Of a stretch of 24,464 nucleotides of DNA, positions 1-20,950 are shown piece after piece. The DNA is taken from positions 1 through 24,464 of the IMG/VR virus record IMGVR_UViG_3300029448_000423; one strand, given 5' to 3'. The stretch comes from a virus. Below the pieces are notes generated by a model. That model was not told where the DNA came from. It made no database searches and saw nothing but the letters and a program-made list of their open reading frames with translations. Position 1 is the first letter of the stretch; the number at the start of each line of letters is the position of its first letter. Both the position numbers and the translations under genes were made by a program.

Positions 1-84
1 CGCCTTAGGAGCCTTAGGTAGAATACCGATTGCTTGAAGTGGTTTGGTTACTAATCTTGTTACTGATCTTAGTGGGTTACACAT
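1..84 (-). CDS. Partial late gene, hypothetical (5' end only)
   Basis: An ATG at 84-82 (minus strand) is preceded by a strong GGAGG and opens a frame that runs off the left edge (28 codons, beginning MCNPLRSVTRLVTKPLQ). It overlaps the end of the acetyltransferase gene by 8 bases, which is typical of translational coupling in this block. Its place after terminase and acetyltransferase in a packaging operon suggests a structural or head-related protein. The visible residues match no family I can name, and no function is assigned. Confidence 0.6.
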   Translation of the reverse strand, partial: MCNPLRSVTRLVTKPLQAIGILPKAPKA

Positions 85-469
85 TATTTACCTCCTTATT
101 GTATGTATGCCCTGTAACTGTGTATCCCATCTTTTCGTAAAACTGCTTAGTTCTTTCGGGATTAATTCCAGTTGCCGTAGCCGGGCTTATTCTTTTTGCG
201 CCTCTTTTCGTAGCCCATGTTTCAAAGTCTCTAAATAGTCTGACCGCAGCTACTGATCCCCTTCTTGTTTGATCTACATAGTAAGTAAGATCAGAGGCAT
301 ATAAGTCCTTACCAAAATAGTACTCTGTTATAAAGCCAATGAACACCCCTATTATTTCATTATTCTCCTCAGCTATCTGTACAAACTGGTCATGTAAAAA
401 AGCCATAAGTAATCGTTTAAGTTTATCTGGGTCAAAATCAAGGTCTTTGAAGTGAGATTCTTGGTGCAT
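77..469 (-). CDS. GNAT-family N-acetyltransferase
   Basis: The protein has the GNAT fold pattern. An RRGSVAAVRLF stretch fits the acetyl-CoA pyrophosphate loop and following helix, and NPERTKQFYEKMGY near the C terminus is the usual last helix and strand. Members acetylate amino groups of proteins or small molecules, and the phage substrate is unknown. Coordinates given use the first ATG (130 aa). The reading frame, however, stays open and GNAT-like for about 22 further codons upstream (VTRPAEPGDIKEIIELGSR), back to a stop just before AAGGAGA. This supports a non-ATG start, perhaps ATT at 535-533 or ATA at 529-527, overlapping the terminase stop. The gene sits directly after large terminase and just before another late gene. 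A role in modifying host or virion protein is inference only. Confidence 0.8.
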   Translation of the reverse strand: MHQESHFKDLDFDPDKLKRLLMAFLHDQFVQIAEENNEIIGVFIGFITEYYFGKDLYASDLTYYVDQTRRGSVAAVRLFRDFETWATKRGAKRISPATATGINPERTKQFYEKMGYTVTGHTYNKEVNNV

Positions 470-6662: not shown

Positions 6663-6834
6663 TAACCACGTATCTAAAGATGAGTTTCATCGATTTGTAC
6701 GCGTACAACGTCAGGGATCTGTAAATATGATCTCGCCTGATGTACAAGTACTTGCGTGTATTGATAAAGATACTCATATGACGATACTTAGGCACTATGA
6801 AGAACTAGAGGACACACATGGTCAACCCGAATAG
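6640..6834 (+). CDS. Small hypothetical protein (64 aa)
   Basis: ATG 6640 follows GAAAGGAGAAGACA; the upstream in-frame start at 6592 lies before this site. The product is a mixed-charge soluble protein (SKDEFHRFVRVQRQGSVNM, HMTILRHYEELEDTHG) without membrane segments or known motif. It overlaps the gene before by 23 bases and the methyltransferase gene after by 17 bases, so it is translated as part of the cassette. Function unknown. Confidence 0.65.
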   Translation: MNDKLTASNHVSKDEFHRFVRVQRQGSVNMISPDVQVLACIDKDTHMTILRHYEELEDTHGQPE

Positions 6835-7654
6835 AAAGATCGACAAGACACATCTATCTATTGACAGTGCAGAGCAACGTGGTTTCTTACACAGAGACTA
6901 CATTGCTCACTGTCTTAGATGGACACACGTCGTCAAATACTTAAATGATCGTAAACGTTACACTACAGCACGTATCCTAGATATAGGTTGTGGCAAAGAG
7001 ATACCTATGGCAAAGCTAATGCACTCAAGCAGAATGCAGCCACATGTATACTACGCTTGCGATGTCAATAAATTAACTATGCCAAAGCAATTTGACAAGG
7101 CTAAGTGGAAACCTAGACTTGCAGGTAATACAGATGTTTGCGATCTAAAGCCTGAAGAGTTTGAAGAGGGCCCACCTAACATTATTAGTTGCTTTGAAGT
7201 GCTAGAACATGTAGCACCTGAACACTCAAGACGTATGCTCATGAAGATCTTTGAGCTGCTTGAGACAGAAGGTCGTGCATTTATTAGTACACCTTGCTGG
7301 GACCCTGATGTAGGAGCCGCTGGCAATCACATCAACGAAATGACTTATCAAGCCTTAGGAGCTATGATTGAAGATGTAGGTTTTAAGATCGAAGGTCATT
7401 GGGGTACATTTGCAAGTATAAAAGACTATAAAGATGAGCTTGGTATTCATCAAGGAACATGGGAAGAGTTACGTAGCTACTATGATACTAACTATTTAGC
7501 TACTATCTTTGCTCCATTGTTTCCACACAGATCGCGTAACTGTATCTGGCAGCTGATGAAGACACCAAACTATGATGGTAGATTATTTCCATCACTAAAA
7601 GATGTAGATACTCGCTGGTCAAGCTCAGAAGATTGGAGGCAATTACAACCATGA
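6818..7654 (+). CDS. Class I SAM-dependent methyltransferase
   Basis: This 278-aa protein has a Rossmann-type methyltransferase core: motif I ILDIGCGKE (residues 53-61) for SAM binding, an acidic residue after the second strand (YYACDVN, Asp82), and the post-motif FEVLEHV (126-132). The sequence type is that of small-molecule methyltransferases rather than the base-flipping DNA methylases, since no DPPY or NPPF motif or PCQ loop is seen. The substrate is therefore unknown. It opens a row of overlapping nucleotide-metabolism genes: its stop overlaps the next ATG (ATGA). It could act on a nucleotide, a modified base or a sugar; none of these can be shown from sequence. An AGAGGA lies before ATG 6818. 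Confidence 0.8.
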   Translation: MVNPNRKIDKTHLSIDSAEQRGFLHRDYIAHCLRWTHVVKYLNDRKRYTTARILDIGCGKEIPMAKLMHSSRMQPHVYYACDVNKLTMPKQFDKAKWKPRLAGNTDVCDLKPEEFEEGPPNIISCFEVLEHVAPEHSRRMLMKIFELLETEGRAFISTPCWDPDVGAAGNHINEMTYQALGAMIEDVGFKIEGHWGTFASIKDYKDELGIHQGTWEELRSYYDTNYLATIFAPLFPHRSRNCIWQLMKTPNYDGRLFPSLKDVDTRWSSSEDWRQLQP

Positions 7655-8010
7655 TTAAAGATGTTGATGCTTTTCTTAACAAATTTGGCTTAAAGTATGA
7701 CGGCTTAGCTCGTAGCTTACCTGCAAATACTCGACGAGAACGTATTCGTCATTTAGAAGAAGAACTTAGAGAGTATAGACAGGCCAAATCAGTTTCAGAA
7801 GAGTTTGATGCTTTAATTGACTTGATATACCTAGCAATAGGTACTGCACGCATGCAGGGTCTTGACCTTGAGGCTGGTTGGGACCGCGTGCACCAAGCCA
7901 ATATGAAAAAAGTAAGAAAATCTAATTGGGATGGAGATCATAAAGCAGGCATTGAAAAGCCAGAAGGCTGGATACCACCTGATCTTACAGATCTCACTAA
8001 TGGAGATTAA
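7651..8010 (+). CDS. MazG-like all-alpha NTP pyrophosphohydrolase
   Basis: The product (119 aa from ATG 7651, which overlaps the methyltransferase stop as ATGA) shows the EExxE...ExxD metal-binding signature of all-alpha NTP pyrophosphatases: EEELRE (36-41), then EEFD (50-53) and a second Asp57, followed by the usual HQANMKKV helix. These enzymes split an NTP or dNTP to NMP and pyrophosphate. T4 gp56, which removes dCTP so that hydroxymethyl-dCTP is used instead, belongs to the same superfamily. Its position two genes before a predicted dCMP (hydroxy)methylase makes a dCTPase or dUTPase role attractive, but the substrate is inferred from context. A TTG start at 7633 lies ahead of the GGAGG and is rejected. 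Confidence 0.8.
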   Translation: MIKDVDAFLNKFGLKYDGLARSLPANTRRERIRHLEEELREYRQAKSVSEEFDALIDLIYLAIGTARMQGLDLEAGWDRVHQANMKKVRKSNWDGDHKAGIEKPEGWIPPDLTDLTNGD

Positions 8011-9009
8011 ATGATAATAATATTAGAAGGGCCAGACGGTGCTGGTAAGACGACTCTTGCGCGTGAGTTAGTCAAGCAGACAAAGGGTATTTACTTACAC
8101 CTTAATTACCGCTGGCCTCAAAAGATTTTTTTATACCACACCGCTGCTATACGTTATGCAGCACGTCAAAATAGACCGATAATTATTGATCGATGGTGGC
8201 CATCAGAAGCTATTTATGCTACTAGCTACAGAAGCCAATCGCCCTGGCCATTGCAAGGCCGCATGGCTGATCGAGTTGCACGTAAACACGGTGCACTTTA
8301 CATTTACTGTCTACCAGAGAATGTAGCAGATCACTGTGAAAAGTTTATGCAACTAAAAGAAAATAGAGAAGAAATGTATGATGACATAGCAGAAGTCACT
8401 CACAAGTACATGTCACTGTGGTACGGCAATCAATTGCACGAACAAGGTGAAAATTATATAGATTTTGTAACACGTAATGGCGGCTTACACGAAAGAAAAG
8501 ACCACTTACGTTATAATATAGAAGAACACGGGCATTATTTAGACCTATTTGCAGAGCGTGCAATAGATCAAGCAAAGCTTATAAGAGAGCTACAATACCA
8601 GCCTGCATTAGAATATACTAATTTTAATATATTAGGAAATACTGATAAGCTAAAGTACCTATTTGTAGGTGAGCAAGTCAATCCTAAGTATCGTGAGCTA
8701 TTTTGGCCATTTTATGAGTACAAGAATTCTAGTTTATACTTAACACAATGTATGCAAGCTGCTGAAATACCTGAAGAAGGTATTATGTGGTGTAATGCTT
8801 ACAATCACGACGAGTCACTAAACAAGAATATAAAACCAATTGTTGAGCAGTATGATCCACGAGTAGTTACATTTGGGGCGCACGCTGCAGAGGCTATGGC
8901 AGAGCAAGGCATCATTACATATGAAGAGCTAGCTCATCCGTCATATGCTAAACGATTTGGTAAAGTTAACTTAATGGAGATAATGAAACATGTCATATTA
9001 TGCGAATAA
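8011..9009 (+). CDS. dNMP (thymidylate)-kinase-like domain fused to a UDG-like domain
   Basis: The N-terminal half is a P-loop nucleoside-monophosphate kinase of thymidylate kinase type: Walker A EGPDGAGKTT (6-15) and the DRWW motif at Asp60-Arg61, followed by SEAIY. It would phosphorylate a dNMP using ATP. The C-terminal part (about 214-332) has the uracil-DNA-glycosylase superfamily pattern: a YLFVGEQVNPK loop (217-226), hydrophobic strand with MWCNAYN (259-265), strand and loop VVTFGAHAAEAM (285-296), and the closing HPSYAKRF (309-316) that matches the HPS motif. A single 332-aa chain with both is unusual: classic kinases are about 200 residues. The start ATG 8011 directly follows the previous stop, and the end overlaps the next gene by 20 bases. 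The glycosylase may be catalytic or only a base-reading domain. Confidence 0.78.
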   Translation: MIIILEGPDGAGKTTLARELVKQTKGIYLHLNYRWPQKIFLYHTAAIRYAARQNRPIIIDRWWPSEAIYATSYRSQSPWPLQGRMADRVARKHGALYIYCLPENVADHCEKFMQLKENREEMYDDIAEVTHKYMSLWYGNQLHEQGENYIDFVTRNGGLHERKDHLRYNIEEHGHYLDLFAERAIDQAKLIRELQYQPALEYTNFNILGNTDKLKYLFVGEQVNPKYRELFWPFYEYKNSSLYLTQCMQAAEIPEEGIMWCNAYNHDESLNKNIKPIVEQYDPRVVTFGAHAAEAMAEQGIITYEELAHPSYAKRFGKVNLMEIMKHVILCE

Positions 9010-9808
9010 TGCGTGGCTGCAAGCACTCTCTGATGCTTACACATTCGGTAGTCCGTTTGCACCTAGAGGAGCTCATACACGCGAATTATTAGGACGCAAG
9101 ATACAGGTTCATATGAAGTGGCCAATCATAACTATAATAGAGCGCAAGCTTTCATATAAGTTTATGGCAGCAGAAGCTTTATGGATAATGTCAGGCGACA
9201 ATAAAGTAGAAACTATATCTAAGTATAATAAAAATATAGCTAAGTATTCTGATGACGGTCTTACATACTTTGGGGCGTATGGTCCTAAGTTTGTAGATCA
9301 AATTGCTTACGCGGCTAGAACATTACACGAAGACCATGACTCACGTCAAGCGGTCATAAACATTTGGCGAGAAAAGCCACATAAAACAAAAGATGTACCC
9401 TGCACTCTTAGTGTGCAATGGATGATCAGGTATGGTAAGTTAGACTGCTTTGTCAGTATGAGGTCATCTGATATTTGGCTAGGTCTACCTTATGACATCT
9501 TTAATTTTAGTATGATGTCACAGTACTTGATGCTATACCTTGAAAAACTAGGTCTAACAGTAGGTATTGGCGACTTACATCTTACAGCTGCAAGCATGCA
9601 CTTGTATGAGAGAGATGTTCAGGCAGCTGAGAAAGTACTAAACTATGCTTCACCAGAAGCAGCATTTGATCCTGATCGATGCATAAGAACTATAGAACCT
9701 ACGATAGCAAGTTTTGTAGACTTTGAAGAGTTTTTTCAATACTTAACTTATGCTAGAAACCATGGTTTTGATCTTGAGAGGGGCAATGTCGCAAATCAAA
9801 GCAACTGA
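8990..9808 (+). CDS. Thymidylate-synthase-fold enzyme, probably dCMP (hydroxy)methylase
   Basis: The fold family is clear: Glu62 in EALWIMSGD, catalytic Cys138 in VPCTLSVQW, a MRSSD arginine, LGLPYDI, and HLY at the end of the core. The key residue is Asp169 in LGLPYDI. True thymidylate synthases have Asn here (LGLPFNI; E. coli Asn177), which reads dUMP. dCMP hydroxymethylase of T4 has Asp at this place, and changing Asn to Asp in a thymidylate synthase turns it into a dCMP methylase. So dCMP is the likely substrate, with methylene-tetrahydrofolate, giving 5-hydroxymethyl-dCMP or 5-methyl-dCMP; sequence alone does not decide which. The second Arg of the DSRR motif is Gln120, and the usual PVAI-type C terminus is missing. 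A shifted start or divergence from ThyA is possible. Confidence 0.8.
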   Translation: MSYYANNAWLQALSDAYTFGSPFAPRGAHTRELLGRKIQVHMKWPIITIIERKLSYKFMAAEALWIMSGDNKVETISKYNKNIAKYSDDGLTYFGAYGPKFVDQIAYAARTLHEDHDSRQAVINIWREKPHKTKDVPCTLSVQWMIRYGKLDCFVSMRSSDIWLGLPYDIFNFSMMSQYLMLYLEKLGLTVGIGDLHLTAASMHLYERDVQAAEKVLNYASPEAAFDPDRCIRTIEPTIASFVDFEEFFQYLTYARNHGFDLERGNVANQSN

Positions 9809-10250
9809 GTACTTTTTAATTATGGCTAAATTAGTCTCGCGCAGAAGTACTTGTGCGAGACGTCAAGTAGGTTGTGTACTTGTAGATAAACATAAACATG
9901 TGCTTGCAACAGGTTATAATGGTGTAGCTTCAGGTGTAACACATTGTACTGATGAACCATGTCCAGGAGCTGCCTGCAAGTCAGGAGAAGGATTAGATTT
10001 ATGTGAGGCAATACATGCAGAACAAAACGCAATACTGCAGTGTAAAGATGCTCAACAAATTAGAACGGCTTATATTACAACTGCACCCTGTGTAACTTGT
10101 ACTAAGCTATTATTAAACACGTCCTGTAAGACGATAGTATTTTTAGAGAGCTATCCTAATTCAGGTAGAAAAATATGGAATAGGAGTTGGATAAAATATG
10201 TCCCAATTGACGATGTTTTCGCCAAAGTCTTCGTGGATACCACCAGCTGA
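9786..10250 (+). CDS. dCMP deaminase
   Basis: The 154-aa product has the zinc site of the cytidine/dCMP deaminase family: HAE at 77-79 and PCVTC at 101-105, plus a Cys-rich insert (HCTDEPCPGAACKSG, 53-67) typical of dCMP deaminases. It turns dCMP to dUMP in the cytoplasm, feeding thymidylate synthesis. ATG 9786 is chosen, with GAGAGGGG upstream. The TS-like gene overlaps it by 23 bases, and the polymerase gene begins 53 bases before it ends. Next to an enzyme that may use dCMP, it would shift the pool away from unmodified cytosine, as T4 does with its own dCMP deaminase. Confidence 0.9.
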   Translation: MSQIKATEYFLIMAKLVSRRSTCARRQVGCVLVDKHKHVLATGYNGVASGVTHCTDEPCPGAACKSGEGLDLCEAIHAEQNAILQCKDAQQIRTAYITTAPCVTCTKLLLNTSCKTIVFLESYPNSGRKIWNRSWIKYVPIDDVFAKVFVDTTS

Positions 10251-12078
10251 CTTTCCTACATTATCTAATGCAACAATGATTGCGTTTGATGTAGAAACTT
10301 ATGACCCTAACTTAATGACGTTAGGACCAGGTGGTGTTAGACGAGATGGTAAGTTAGTAGGTATCTCTATAAGATCAGATTGTGGCTTCTGTGGCTACTT
10401 TCCGTTTGGACATGAAGGTGGAGATAATTTAGAAAAAGAAAAGGTATTGCGTTGGGCTAAGGACATCTTAGGTCGCGATATAGAGTACGTAGGTGCCAAT
10501 ATTTTGTACGATATGGAATGGCTAAGAGCATATGACATAGAAGTCAAAGGAACCCTAAGAGACATACAGGTAGCTGAGCCACTAATTAATGAAGAATCAC
10601 CTCAAGGCTATAGCTTAGCAGTACTTGCTAAAAGATATTTAGGTGAAGATAAAAATGAAGATTTACTTATAGAAGCTGCCCGTGCTCACGGTGTAGATCC
10701 AAAAGGTGGTTTGTGGAAGTTGCCAGCAAGATTTGTAGGTCCATATGCAGAAGCTGATGCTGACTTACCATATAACATTTACTTACGTCAAATACAAAAA
10801 TTAAAGAATCAAGATCTGTGGGATATATTTGAACTAGAGTCAAAATTAATAAGAGTTATACTTGACATGAGGTTTAGAGGTGTAGCCATTGATCTTAATA
10901 AAGCAGAAGAGCTCAATGAAAAGTATAAGACAGAAGAAGTTAATATACTAAAAAGCATACGAAAAGAAAGTGGTATGCTAGTCGAACCATGGTCAGGCGA
11001 TGATTTAAAAAGAGCTTTTGATAAGGTAGGAATTTGGTATCCAACAACAGCTAAAGGTAATGCATCATTTGTATCTGACTGGCTAAACAACCATGAACAA
11101 GAATTACCACGACTAATAGGTAAGTTTCGTAAGACTTGTAAGATGAGAAGAGATTTTATAGAAGGTATCTGCATAAAGCAAAATCACAATGGCCGTATAC
11201 ATGCACAGTTTCATGCGCTCCGCAAAGACTCTGACGGTACTCGTACAGGTAGGTTTAGTTCGTCGACTCCTAATCTACAACAAATACCGGCACGTGACGA
11301 TCATTGGGGCCCATTGGTAAGATCGTTATTTACTCCTGACGATGGTTGCCATTGGGCTTGCTTAGACTATTCACAACAAGAACCTCGCGTGCTTATGCAC
11401 TATGCCTACTTAAGAAAATTAAGAGGTGCTGAAGAAGCGGTTAACTTATTTAATACAGATGAGCATGCTGACTTCCACCAGATTGTATCCGATATGGCAA
11501 ACATCCCCCGAAAATCTGCTAAGACTATCAATTTAGGTATGTTTTATGGTATGGGCATATTTAAGCTATCTCAACAATTAGGGCTAGAGATGAGTGAAGC
11601 TAAACCACTGTTTGAACAGTATCATCAACGTGTACCATTTGTAAGGCAACTTGCACAAGAGTGTAGCAAAGCTGCTAGTACTCGCGGACACATAAGAACA
11701 TTGCTAGGTAGACAGCGACATTTTGATCTGTGGGAACCATCAGATTCTAGAAACAAGTGGCCGAACAAAGAGATACCACTGTCATACGATCAAGCAATAA
11801 GAGTATGGGAAGGTAGACCACTAAGACGTAGCTTTACACACAAAGCACTAAATGCACTAGTCCAAGGTTCATCTGCTGACATGATAAAGAAAGCTATGAT
11901 AGAATTACATGAAGCAGGTATAGTTCCACAAATTACTGTGCACGATGAAGTAGATTTCTCATTTAATAATTCATCTGATTTAGTTATGGCACAAGAGATT
12001 ATGGAAAACTGTGTTAAGTTACATGTACCATTAAAAGTAGATGTAGAGACTGGCCCTAACTGGGGAGAAATAAAATGA
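10198..12078 (+). CDS. polA: Family A DNA polymerase with 3'-5' exonuclease
   Basis: This is the phage replicative polymerase (626 aa). The exonuclease domain shows Asp31 and Glu33 in FDVETYDP, GANILYDMEWL as Exo II, and YAEADAD as Exo III. The polymerase domain shows motif A CLDYSQQEPR (Asp390), motif B RKSAKTINLGMFYG (Lys442 to Tyr450), and motif C VHDEVDF (His582-Asp583-Glu584). The residue matching E. coli Phe762 is Leu446. Leucine at this place marks a class frequent in marine viruses, often linked to less strictly lytic lifestyles. No 5' nuclease domain is present. The gene overlaps the deaminase before and shares ATGA with the nuclease after. It stands in a row with primase, SSB-like and helicase genes, so it should be the replicase. 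Confidence 0.95.
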   Translation: MSQLTMFSPKSSWIPPADFPTLSNATMIAFDVETYDPNLMTLGPGGVRRDGKLVGISIRSDCGFCGYFPFGHEGGDNLEKEKVLRWAKDILGRDIEYVGANILYDMEWLRAYDIEVKGTLRDIQVAEPLINEESPQGYSLAVLAKRYLGEDKNEDLLIEAARAHGVDPKGGLWKLPARFVGPYAEADADLPYNIYLRQIQKLKNQDLWDIFELESKLIRVILDMRFRGVAIDLNKAEELNEKYKTEEVNILKSIRKESGMLVEPWSGDDLKRAFDKVGIWYPTTAKGNASFVSDWLNNHEQELPRLIGKFRKTCKMRRDFIEGICIKQNHNGRIHAQFHALRKDSDGTRTGRFSSSTPNLQQIPARDDHWGPLVRSLFTPDDGCHWACLDYSQQEPRVLMHYAYLRKLRGAEEAVNLFNTDEHADFHQIVSDMANIPRKSAKTINLGMFYGMGIFKLSQQLGLEMSEAKPLFEQYHQRVPFVRQLAQECSKAASTRGHIRTLLGRQRHFDLWEPSDSRNKWPNKEIPLSYDQAIRVWEGRPLRRSFTHKALNALVQGSSADMIKKAMIELHEAGIVPQITVHDEVDFSFNNSSDLVMAQEIMENCVKLHVPLKVDVETGPNWGEIK

Positions 12079-19037: not shown

Positions 19038-19237
19038 TGTGCTAGCGGATTACTGCTCTTCTTTTGTAGTTGCTCGATATCTTTTTTGATAGCGATTATA
19101 TCTTTTTCAATAGGTTTAGTATCTACTACCTTTGATTCAAGTACTTCAACTCTTTCTATTAACTGACCTTGAAATACAAATAGTGATGCTATTGTAATGG
19201 CTAGTCCTATCCCTGCTGCTATTGTCTTGATGTCCAT
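19034..19237 (-). CDS. Small membrane-anchored coiled-coil protein (67 aa)
   Basis: The product has one N-terminal transmembrane segment (TIAAGIGLAITIASLFVFQG, about 5-24), followed by a heptad-like region of charged and hydrophobic residues (LIERVEVLESKVVDTKPIE...IKKDIEQLQKK). That layout is like i-spanin (Rz) or small phage membrane adaptors. No Rz1-like lipoprotein gene is visible inside it. It starts with GAGGATAG before ATG 19237, overlaps the exported Glu-rich protein gene by 19 bases, and shares ATGA with the nuclease gene. A lysis-related role is inferred from neighbours. Confidence 0.7.
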   Translation of the reverse strand: MDIKTIAAGIGLAITIASLFVFQGQLIERVEVLESKVVDTKPIEKDIIAIKKDIEQLQKKSSNPLAQ

Positions 19238-20448
19238 AATCTATCCTCGTAAGTTTGGTTAGAGTAAATCTGTCTTATATCAACATAGCTACTAGCTATG
19301 TATGGATCTATATTAATATCTTTTATCTCTGGTTGTACAAATATTTCTGCATTTACTTCAGCATAAGAAGATATCTTACTGTGGTTTTGCATAACTTTAG
19401 CTACTATCATTTGTGTAGCTTTAAGCTGACCGTCTATTGTTTTAATCTTATCAGCTACCTTAATAGCAATGTCCTCTACTGTTATCGTAACATCGTCTGT
19501 AGAGCCACTGTCTGCGACTGCAGTTTCTTCAACTGTTTCTGTTGGTTCAGTAACCTCTTCTGTTTCAGGACTTGCCTCCTCCATCGGAGCTTCGACTTCT
19601 TCATATATTTCCTCCGCTATTAATATTTCTTCTTCTACCTGTACTTCAGGCTCAACTAAAATAATTTCTTCTTCTATAACTTCAGGTGCTAGCACAATAG
19701 TTTCTTCTATAAATTCTTCTTCTACAGTCATCTCTATTATTTCTGGTATAGATTCTACATAAACTTCTTCTATGATTGGTTCAACAAAAACTTCTTCAAA
19801 GATTAATTCTTCTTGCATAAAGACTTCTTCTATCTCTTCAAAGATTGCAGCAATCTCTTGTGTTTGCTCTACAGTTAAAACTGTAGGATCGTAGGTCATG
19901 GTCACTGATATGTTATCTACGTTAGGACCACCAAGATTAGCAGGAGCAGCAGCATCAGACCCACTAATAAAAAGATTTCCAATATTACTGCCAGTCCCTG
20001 TGTACGTAATACTGTCTGTAAAATCTTTCCCATTAATTCCTGTAACATTTGTTCTCTCCTGTATTGTTGTAGCTAATACGTTTTGATTTTCATCTTGTAT
20101 TTGTAACCTAATAGTAAATGTATCAGCACCGCCTCTGTTAGGTGCCCAACTACCAACACCACCTTCACCATTTTGTACTTCAACACTAGAGTTTAAAGTA
20201 ATGCCATTATCAAGCATTTGTTGACTTATAACGTTATTATGGAGAGGAAAACTCTGCTCAATACTACCATAATCTCCAAACTCTAGGTCATGTCCTCCTG
20301 GACAACAATCTCCTATTCTTTGTGCATCACCAGACAATGTCCACCCTGTCGTGCCATTGTCAAATGTGCCGTTAGTAATTAAATTTTCTGTTGTGTCTGA
20401 ACTTGCCAGTAGAGGTAGCATCAACAACAGGCTTAAAACCTTTTTCAT
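19219..20448 (-). CDS. Exported protein: jelly-roll-like head plus very Glu-rich stalk
   Basis: From ATG 20448 (409 aa; AAGGA lies nine bases before it) the product has a signal peptide (MKKVLSLLLMLPLLASSDT) without lipobox. Next comes a domain beginning ENLITNGTFDNGTTGWTLSG, the usual opening of carbohydrate-binding-module-like beta sandwiches, up to about residue 190. A long acidic stretch (about 200-320) follows, with dozens of Glu in EEVFVEPIIEEVYVE-like repeats. A final basic-acidic mixed helical part ends the protein. Another in-frame ATG exists at 20472 but gives a signal sequence starting with eight charged or polar residues. It overlaps its upstream neighbour by 77 bases. Binding to a surface glycan is inferred from the fold type only. 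Confidence 0.7.
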   Translation of the reverse strand: MKKVLSLLLMLPLLASSDTTENLITNGTFDNGTTGWTLSGDAQRIGDCCPGGHDLEFGDYGSIEQSFPLHNNVISQQMLDNGITLNSSVEVQNGEGGVGSWAPNRGGADTFTIRLQIQDENQNVLATTIQERTNVTGINGKDFTDSITYTGTGSNIGNLFISGSDAAAPANLGGPNVDNISVTMTYDPTVLTVEQTQEIAAIFEEIEEVFMQEELIFEEVFVEPIIEEVYVESIPEIIEMTVEEEFIEETIVLAPEVIEEEIILVEPEVQVEEEILIAEEIYEEVEAPMEEASPETEEVTEPTETVEETAVADSGSTDDVTITVEDIAIKVADKIKTIDGQLKATQMIVAKVMQNHSKISSYAEVNAEIFVQPEIKDINIDPYIASSYVDIRQIYSNQTYEDRLWTSRQ

Positions 20449-20950
20449 TCCATTTCTTCCTTGCTTCTTCACCGATTAATCCGTCTATAGGGCACGGGGT
20501 CCCTGCATCCATCATCGCTTGCCATACATTTTTATCTTGGCACATTATAGATATTGCAGCTACCTTCATACCTAAACCATTTAATAATTTAGACTTCTTT
20601 CTACGTTCACATTCTTCGTCATGGTAGTACGTACCCATGCTAGTAGAAAAACCAATCACTGTCATACCTATTGATAGCGGTATCACACAGCTGTCTTGTC
20701 CGTATACAGACATAGCCGGAGCCGTTGCAGTATTTACCGCAGTTTCTTGATTCGTTGAATTATTTGTTGTATTAGTCGTTGTAGAGTTTGAGCTACTACC
20801 TGACTGATATGTTGTAGAACTTTCATAACCACCTGTTATTGCAGTGTTAGATCCTGCATTGTTTGATTGTGTATTAGTTGTTGCACCAGAGGAAGTTACA
20901 TCTGCTGACGCTACATTGCAAAGTAATATCAGTGGTAATAATCGTTTCAC
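20372..20950 (-). CDS. Exported Ser/Thr/Asn-rich protein with Cys-containing domain (192 aa)
   Basis: A GTG start (20950-20948) follows AAGGATGACTA; the first residues (MKRLLPLILLCNVASADV) form a signal peptide with a likely ASA-DV cut. Residues about 20-75 are a low-complexity Ser, Thr, Asn and Gly linker, followed by a domain with four or so cysteines (DSCVIPL, DEECERR, IMCQD, TPCPID) that could form disulfides in the periplasm, and a hydrophobic segment VIPLSIGMTVIGFSTSMG. The C-terminal part overlaps the next gene by 77 bases in another frame. It resembles other phage exported proteins of unknown role. With the neighbouring membrane proteins it may belong to host-envelope disruption. Confidence 0.7.
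   Translation of the reverse strand: MKRLLPLILLCNVASADVTSSGATTNTQSNNAGSNTAITGGYESSTTYQSGSSSNSTTTNTTNNSTNQETAVNTATAPAMSVYGQDSCVIPLSIGMTVIGFSTSMGTYYHDEECERRKKSKLLNGLGMKVAAISIMCQDKNVWQAMMDAGTPCPIDGLIGEEARKKWNEKGFKPVVDATSTGKFRHNRKFNY

Follow-up and report, generated by a model that had tools for sequence, protein, structure and literature searches.

Among the systems closest to the locus described here, the T4 route comprises the gp56 dCTPase, the gp42 dCMP hydroxymethylase, the gp1 kinase and the cd deaminase. In the ternary structure of gp42, an aspartate three residues before the catalytic cysteine (Asp145), which is a leucine in thymidylate synthases, activates the substrate water, and an Asp or Glu at this place is a published hydroxymethylase signature (PMC6400193). 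MilA, the CMP hydroxymethylase of the mildiomycin pathway, carries Ala176 and Lys133 in place of the Ser and Arg that select deoxyribose (PMC5175136). At the level of phage contigs, positions 147 and 177 of the thymidylate synthase family were the top two associated with cytosine-modified DNA, and the cytosine-modified contigs recovered by MetaGPA carry genes of this family together with PRA-PH (MazG), dCMP deaminase and carbamoyltransferase genes (PMC8670742). Lastly, gp27-gp31 of Stenotrophomonas phage AXL3 were published as thymidylate synthesis genes, with its DNA modification left open by the authors (PMC7504290).

The locus that we analyzed lies in a 24.5 kb fragment of a viral genome (the whole analyzed stretch, hereafter the window), in which the open reading frame at 8990..9808 on the plus strand encodes 272 aa with no stop codon inside. 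Both profile (PF00303, 6.5e-23, 81.7 bits against a cut-off of 24.3) and fold place its product in the thymidylate synthase superfamily, and none of the NCBIfam thymidylate synthase equivalogs fit it, the best scoring 68 bits where the cut-off is 327. We interpret it as a phage dCMP hydroxymethylase, an activity that we predict from its sequence with high confidence. For the residue comparison we aligned it with E. coli ThyA (its sequence agreeing in length with PDB entries), T4 gp42, SPO1 gp29-type and Elanor/DLP4-type enzymes, and phage homologues. At the base-reading position, the alignment placed Asp169 (codon 9494..9496, plus strand), not Asn, opposite ThyA Asn177 and T4 gp42 Asp179, as a preliminary description of this DNA had proposed. 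Its other residue claims held as well, in that catalytic Cys138, the arginine of MRSSD and the HLY motif are kept (Cys138 with Thr139, codons 9401..9406, plus strand, opposite ThyA Cys146 and His147; Arg158/Ser159/Asp161 opposite Arg166/Ser167/Asp169; His204 and Tyr206 of H204-L205-Y206 opposite His207 and Tyr209), SRQ (S118 R119 Q120) replaces the usual SRR, and the PVAI-type end is absent, the enzyme having no ThyA-type C-terminal tail. Absent from that description were Asp135, which stands three residues ahead of the catalytic cysteine in Asp135-Val-Pro-Cys138 (codon 9392..9394, plus strand; T4 gp42 Asp145, ThyA Leu143), the Thr139 that follows the cysteine, the lost equivalent of ThyA Trp80, and the neighboring gene cassette. 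The T4 gp42 set of Asp145-x-x-Cys148-Thr plus Asp179 is thus present in full. Together, Asp177, Asp143 and Thr147 (ThyA numbering), the absent tail and the NCBIfam score rule out a ThyA equivalog, and residue alignment, tree, fold and gene context support the earlier view of a thymidylate synthase-fold protein that acts on dCMP and for which a plain thymidylate synthase label would be wrong.

Positions 143/147/177 (ThyA numbering) sorted the aligned reference enzymes into four sets, whose activities rest on annotation and residues save for those of T4, SPO1, E. coli and MilA. These sets were Leu/His/Asn in the thymidylate synthases of E. coli and RB16, Asp/Asn/Asn in the dUMP hydroxymethylase type (SPO1, SBSphiC, Montesquieu, Ab18), Asn/Pro/Asp in Elanor and DLP4, where a downstream DHFR gene fits a methylase, and Asp/Thr/Asp in T4 gp42, the window enzyme and several others. 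Asp/Thr/Asp also occurs in L122 (AB434P2), L126 (Enterococcus 9183), L128 (ATCCB) and L132 (Xp15), whose annotations as thymidylate synthase or dUMP hydroxymethylase are probably mislabels. Separately, the Bacillota contigs L112 (4990-5988), L118 (12138-12758), L119 and L120 encode, close to a hydroxymethylase-like gene, a second and strongly degenerated thymidylate synthase-fold protein in which several residues of the active site differ.

With Elanor/DLP4 standing in for Xp12, this code bears on whether the enzyme could be an Xp12-kind dCMP methylase, which would reduce the methylene intermediate by hydride transfer to yield 5-methyl-dCMP and dihydrofolate, and so DNA with 5-methylcytosine. 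Asp177 alone is reported to confer dCMP methylase activity on a thymidylate synthase (Liu and Santi 1992, as cited in PMC8670742), and MazG and dCMP deaminase genes flank the Elanor/DLP4 enzymes too, but the window enzyme has Asp and Thr where these have Asn143 and Pro147 and lacks both the Trp80 equivalent and the C-terminal tail, and no DHFR gene was seen in the window's list of open reading frames or among the Pfam matches of the relative G002. The Elanor/DLP4 enzymes also cluster with thymidylate synthases and stand well apart from the window clade, and we consider a methylase improbable. The preliminary description did not choose between the two activities; a hydroxymethylase is favored because of Asp135 and Thr139, as opposed to the Asn/Pro of the DHFR-linked enzymes.

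Alternatively, the product could act on dUMP, which the dCMP deaminase encoded next to it makes and would supply; it would then be a thymidylate synthase of divergent sequence or a dUMP hydroxymethylase like that of SPO1. SPO1 gp29-type enzymes share SRQ, Asp143 and the lack of a ThyA-type tail with the window enzyme and lay nearer to it than T4 gp42 did in a quick tree, and one homologue is annotated as deoxyuridylate hydroxymethyltransferase. They differ, however, in substrate and in having Asn at 177 and 147, whereas the window enzyme has Asp169 and the whole cassette set has Asp at 177 and Thr or Ser at 147; moreover, T4 likewise pairs a dCMP deaminase with its dCMP enzyme, such that we regard a dUMP enzyme as very improbable. 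The best reading is therefore a dCMP hydroxymethylase, based on the 143/147/177 code, the Asp three before the cysteine, and Ser159 and Arg119, which align with the residues of deoxyribose enzymes.

The aligned active-site residues were invariant in nine phage homologues of 39-75% identity, so their match is not due to chance. In a set of 65 hydroxymethylases gathered through a neighboring methyltransferase gene, without selection on the 143/147/177 residues, Asp177 and Asp143 were each found in 65/65 and position 147 was Thr or Ser in all. Asp177 was also present in all 103 loci of the enzyme's clade, a count partly forced by search patterns that included the YD motif. The published Ser-x-Tyr plus Asp signature is matched only in part, as the window enzyme has Gly95-Ala96-Tyr97 in place of T4 Ser94-x-Tyr96, with Gly in 103/103 clade loci. 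Because SPO1-type hydroxymethylases have Ala at the Ser94 position and nonetheless work, a serine there is probably not essential.

The fold was evaluated with an AlphaFold model (pLDDT 86.9, pTM 0.87, 31 sequences), whose best PDB matches in Foldseek were MilA structures, ahead of all thymidylate synthases, the top one being the MilA dCMP complex (E 9.4e-20, 34% identity, 231 columns). As MilA was also the best PDB relative by sequence, and has Asp186 and an Asp three before its cysteine, we considered a MilA-like hydroxymethylase of CMP or free nucleotides, used outside DNA. This we hold to be extremely unlikely, since Ser159 and Arg119 stand where MilA has its ribonucleotide-selecting Ala176 and Lys133 (PMC5175136), and the gene sits within a phage replication operon beside PolA; MilA further differs in its extra C-terminal helices and its antibiotic pathway. 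Returning to a dCMP hydroxymethylase of phage DNA, an IQ-TREE phylogeny of 45 rows placed the window enzyme inside a well-supported clade of 16 rows (99/99) that includes AXL3, PW916, ctUtU524, ct3Et533 and the pelagiphages HTVC200P and HTVC119P, with T4 gp42 outside. Its deep branches are long and weakly resolved; we tried a single origin of the Asp switch, and the deep nodes were too weak and long-branched to give the number or direction of Asn/Asp switches. The enzyme thus presumably works like the T4 gp42 type while forming a clade of its own, with Gly for Ser94.

The genes around it form a cassette in the order methyltransferase, MazG, kinase, hydroxymethylase, dCMP deaminase and PolA, each abutting or overlapping the next. 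The MazG-type nucleotide pyrophosphohydrolase (7633..8010, plus strand; PF01503, 6.8e-9) possibly has a dCTPase role like T4 gp56, and a cyanophage MazG has been reported to hydrolyze dCTP and dGTP (Rihtman 2019, as cited in PMC9038755). The gene at 8011..9009 (plus strand) encodes a dNMP kinase-like P-loop protein (dTMP kinase TIGR00041, 5.2e-9, below cut-off; phrog_761, 5e-13) with a UDG-superfamily C-terminal domain (about residues 205-332), the C-terminal third being matched by PF03167 in 10 of 24 homologues (best 2.3e-6). A separate protein annotated as a G:T/U glycosylase is encoded in ct3Et533 (L006, 14838-15326), as opposed to the kinase-fused UDG-like domain of the window. The dCMP deaminase (9786..10250, plus strand; PF00383, 1.4e-19; phrog_174, 4.3e-40) likely starts at 9786, its reading frame opening at 9750, and PolA (10198-12078) follows it.

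This arrangement recurs across many phages, unrelated ones included: where clade loci had enough flank, MazG was found in 71/76, the kinase in 71/76, the methyltransferase in 65/76 and the deaminase in 79/84. Its presumed steps, from dCTP removal through hydroxymethylation to phosphorylation and deamination, parallel those of the T4 pathway, but the window has MazG rather than gp56, a UDG-fused kinase, and a methyltransferase where T4 has glucosyltransferases. It shares Asp177, MazG (PRA-PH) and dCMP deaminase with the MetaGPA contigs, which differ in that their partner is a carbamoyltransferase and not a class I methyltransferase, the text of PMC8670742 being silent on a methyltransferase. 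Glucosyltransferase and carbamoyltransferase genes were also sought in G002, a 41.4 kb relative that looks near complete because both its ends join within the methyltransferase gene, and its Pfam matches (1e-3) held neither; nor was any hydroxymethylcytosine-decorating gene recognized as a conserved neighbor across about 100 loci. In phage ATCCB, an enzyme with the Asp/Thr/Asp code adjoins a gene annotated as a beta-glucosyltransferase. Elsewhere in the window, 19219-20472 (minus strand) has a long Glu-rich low-complexity stretch ahead of its C-terminal part, with spurious long open reading frames opposite, and 77-469 (minus strand), beside the terminase end, reads as a GNAT-like acetyltransferase whose G002 relative matches PF00583; no tRNA or RNA families were found across the window.

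The new part of the finding is the methyltransferase, which accompanies hydroxymethylases of two lineages. It is a class I SAM-dependent enzyme of 278 aa (6818..7654, plus strand), assigned on PF13489 (1.1e-13), co-occurrence and similarity to Hen1 and UbiG profiles. A tblastn search of 50,697 phage records gave five with a member of its family; these come from four phages, each of which has the cassette, and the plasmids searched had no member. A profile search of viral contigs, from which 80 loci were kept, revealed a hydroxymethylase at 51 of the 54 methyltransferase loci with at least 3.5 kb downstream; the three others look like truncations, as L215 opens on what seems to be the C-terminal end of a hydroxymethylase, and L207 and L211 begin further downstream than the gene's place in relatives. 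The family (represented by the window gene and L200, L203, L208 and L226) is thus nearly confined to phages with a dCMP hydroxymethylase. At 17 loci (L200-L206, L208-L210, L212, L216, L218-L220, L226, L232), the hydroxymethylase has a Ser matching T4 Ser94; there we found no MazG, kinase or deaminase match, and those of the loci that we read gene by gene gave a second arrangement, with dUTPase, helicase and apparent ribonucleotide reductase. Six of these enzymes, added to the tree, joined T4 gp42 and Nebulous (83/86), outside the window clade. Because it is paired with both lineages, the methyltransferase tracks hydroxymethylated cytosine and not one enzyme lineage. HTVC200P and HTVC119P, which keep the hydroxymethylase without the methyltransferase, offer a natural control.

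As to its chemistry, the invariant residues E127, E130, H131 and H171 are reminiscent of the Hen1 O-methyltransferase metal site. Kinship to Hen1 is tentative, with profile matches on one side and only remote PDB matches by Foldseek on the other (query-normalized TM-score at most 0.56, top match CmoM). A general DNA methylase was rejected, there being no DNA-methylase Pfam match and the best profiles being Methyltransf_23, Hen1 and UbiG. Its co-occurrence with hydroxymethylases suggests further modification of hydroxymethylcytosine, and we tentatively propose, as a possibility short of even chances, that it methylates this base such that the phage base differs from plain 5-hydroxymethylcytosine. 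Methylation of the hydroxymethyl oxygen, giving for example 5-methoxymethylcytosine, is a hypothesis, and the enzyme might instead serve nucleotide or RNA metabolism; such a methyl could act as a small cap in place of glucosylation, concealing the base from enzymes directed against hydroxymethylcytosine.

Evidence on the DNA itself comes from AXL3, which carries the full cassette (five genes, gp27-gp31, in window order) and whose enzyme is 49% identical to that of the window over residues 5-218. Of 37 restriction enzymes tried on its DNA, the 35 with G/C in their sites all failed to cut, and only TasI and Tru1I, whose sites are A/T-only, cut it (PMC7504290). This cutting is unlike what one would expect of heavily modified thymine and so speaks against a dUMP enzyme; the resistance does not single out the base, and a guanine modification is also compatible with it. 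By comparison, of 227 enzymes, 82% failed to cut the 5hmC DNA of T4gt and 94% failed to cut T4 DNA (PMC7653180), which across differing enzyme panels is only a hint of something beyond plain 5hmC in AXL3. Among the enzymes that do cut T4gt 5hmC DNA are AbaSI, MspJI and McrBC (PMC7653180). Indirectly, and by analogy, AXL3 resistance and the association of Asp177 with cytosine-modified contigs point to modified cytosine in the DNA of the window's phage (PMC7504290, PMC8670742).

From the fold, residues, clade and conserved cassette that we computed, we infer a route of catalysis, a substrate for each neighbor and a modified base in virion DNA. Cys138 would attack C6 of dCMP, with Asp169 reading the cytosine ring and protonating it, the one-carbon unit would come from methylene-tetrahydrofolate, and water activated by Asp135 would add at the exocyclic methylene, yielding 5-hydroxymethyl-dCMP with no dihydrofolate made. 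MazG would convert dCTP to dCMP, clearing the normal nucleotide and feeding the hydroxymethylase, the P-loop kinase would begin phosphorylation of hydroxymethyl-dCMP, and the deaminase would turn part of the dCMP into dUMP, a source of thymidine. PolA of the phage would then incorporate the modified base instead of cytosine, possibly with further modification by the linked methyltransferase, and the modified base would shield phage DNA from restriction.

For the family, these readings imply that many phage genes labeled thymidylate synthase would be DNA-modification enzymes, and the 143/147/177 code, which separates the reference enzymes of four aligned activities, is usable on any phage protein of the thymidylate synthase family. 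Members of the enzyme clade occur in phages of Pelagibacter, Stenotrophomonas and Pseudoxanthomonas and in dozens of viral contigs, and from this spread, cytosine replacement may be common beyond T4-like phages. That the methyltransferase accompanies two hydroxymethylase lineages suggests a modified base not described before, and the cultured phages AXL3 and PW916 carry the methyltransferase gene.
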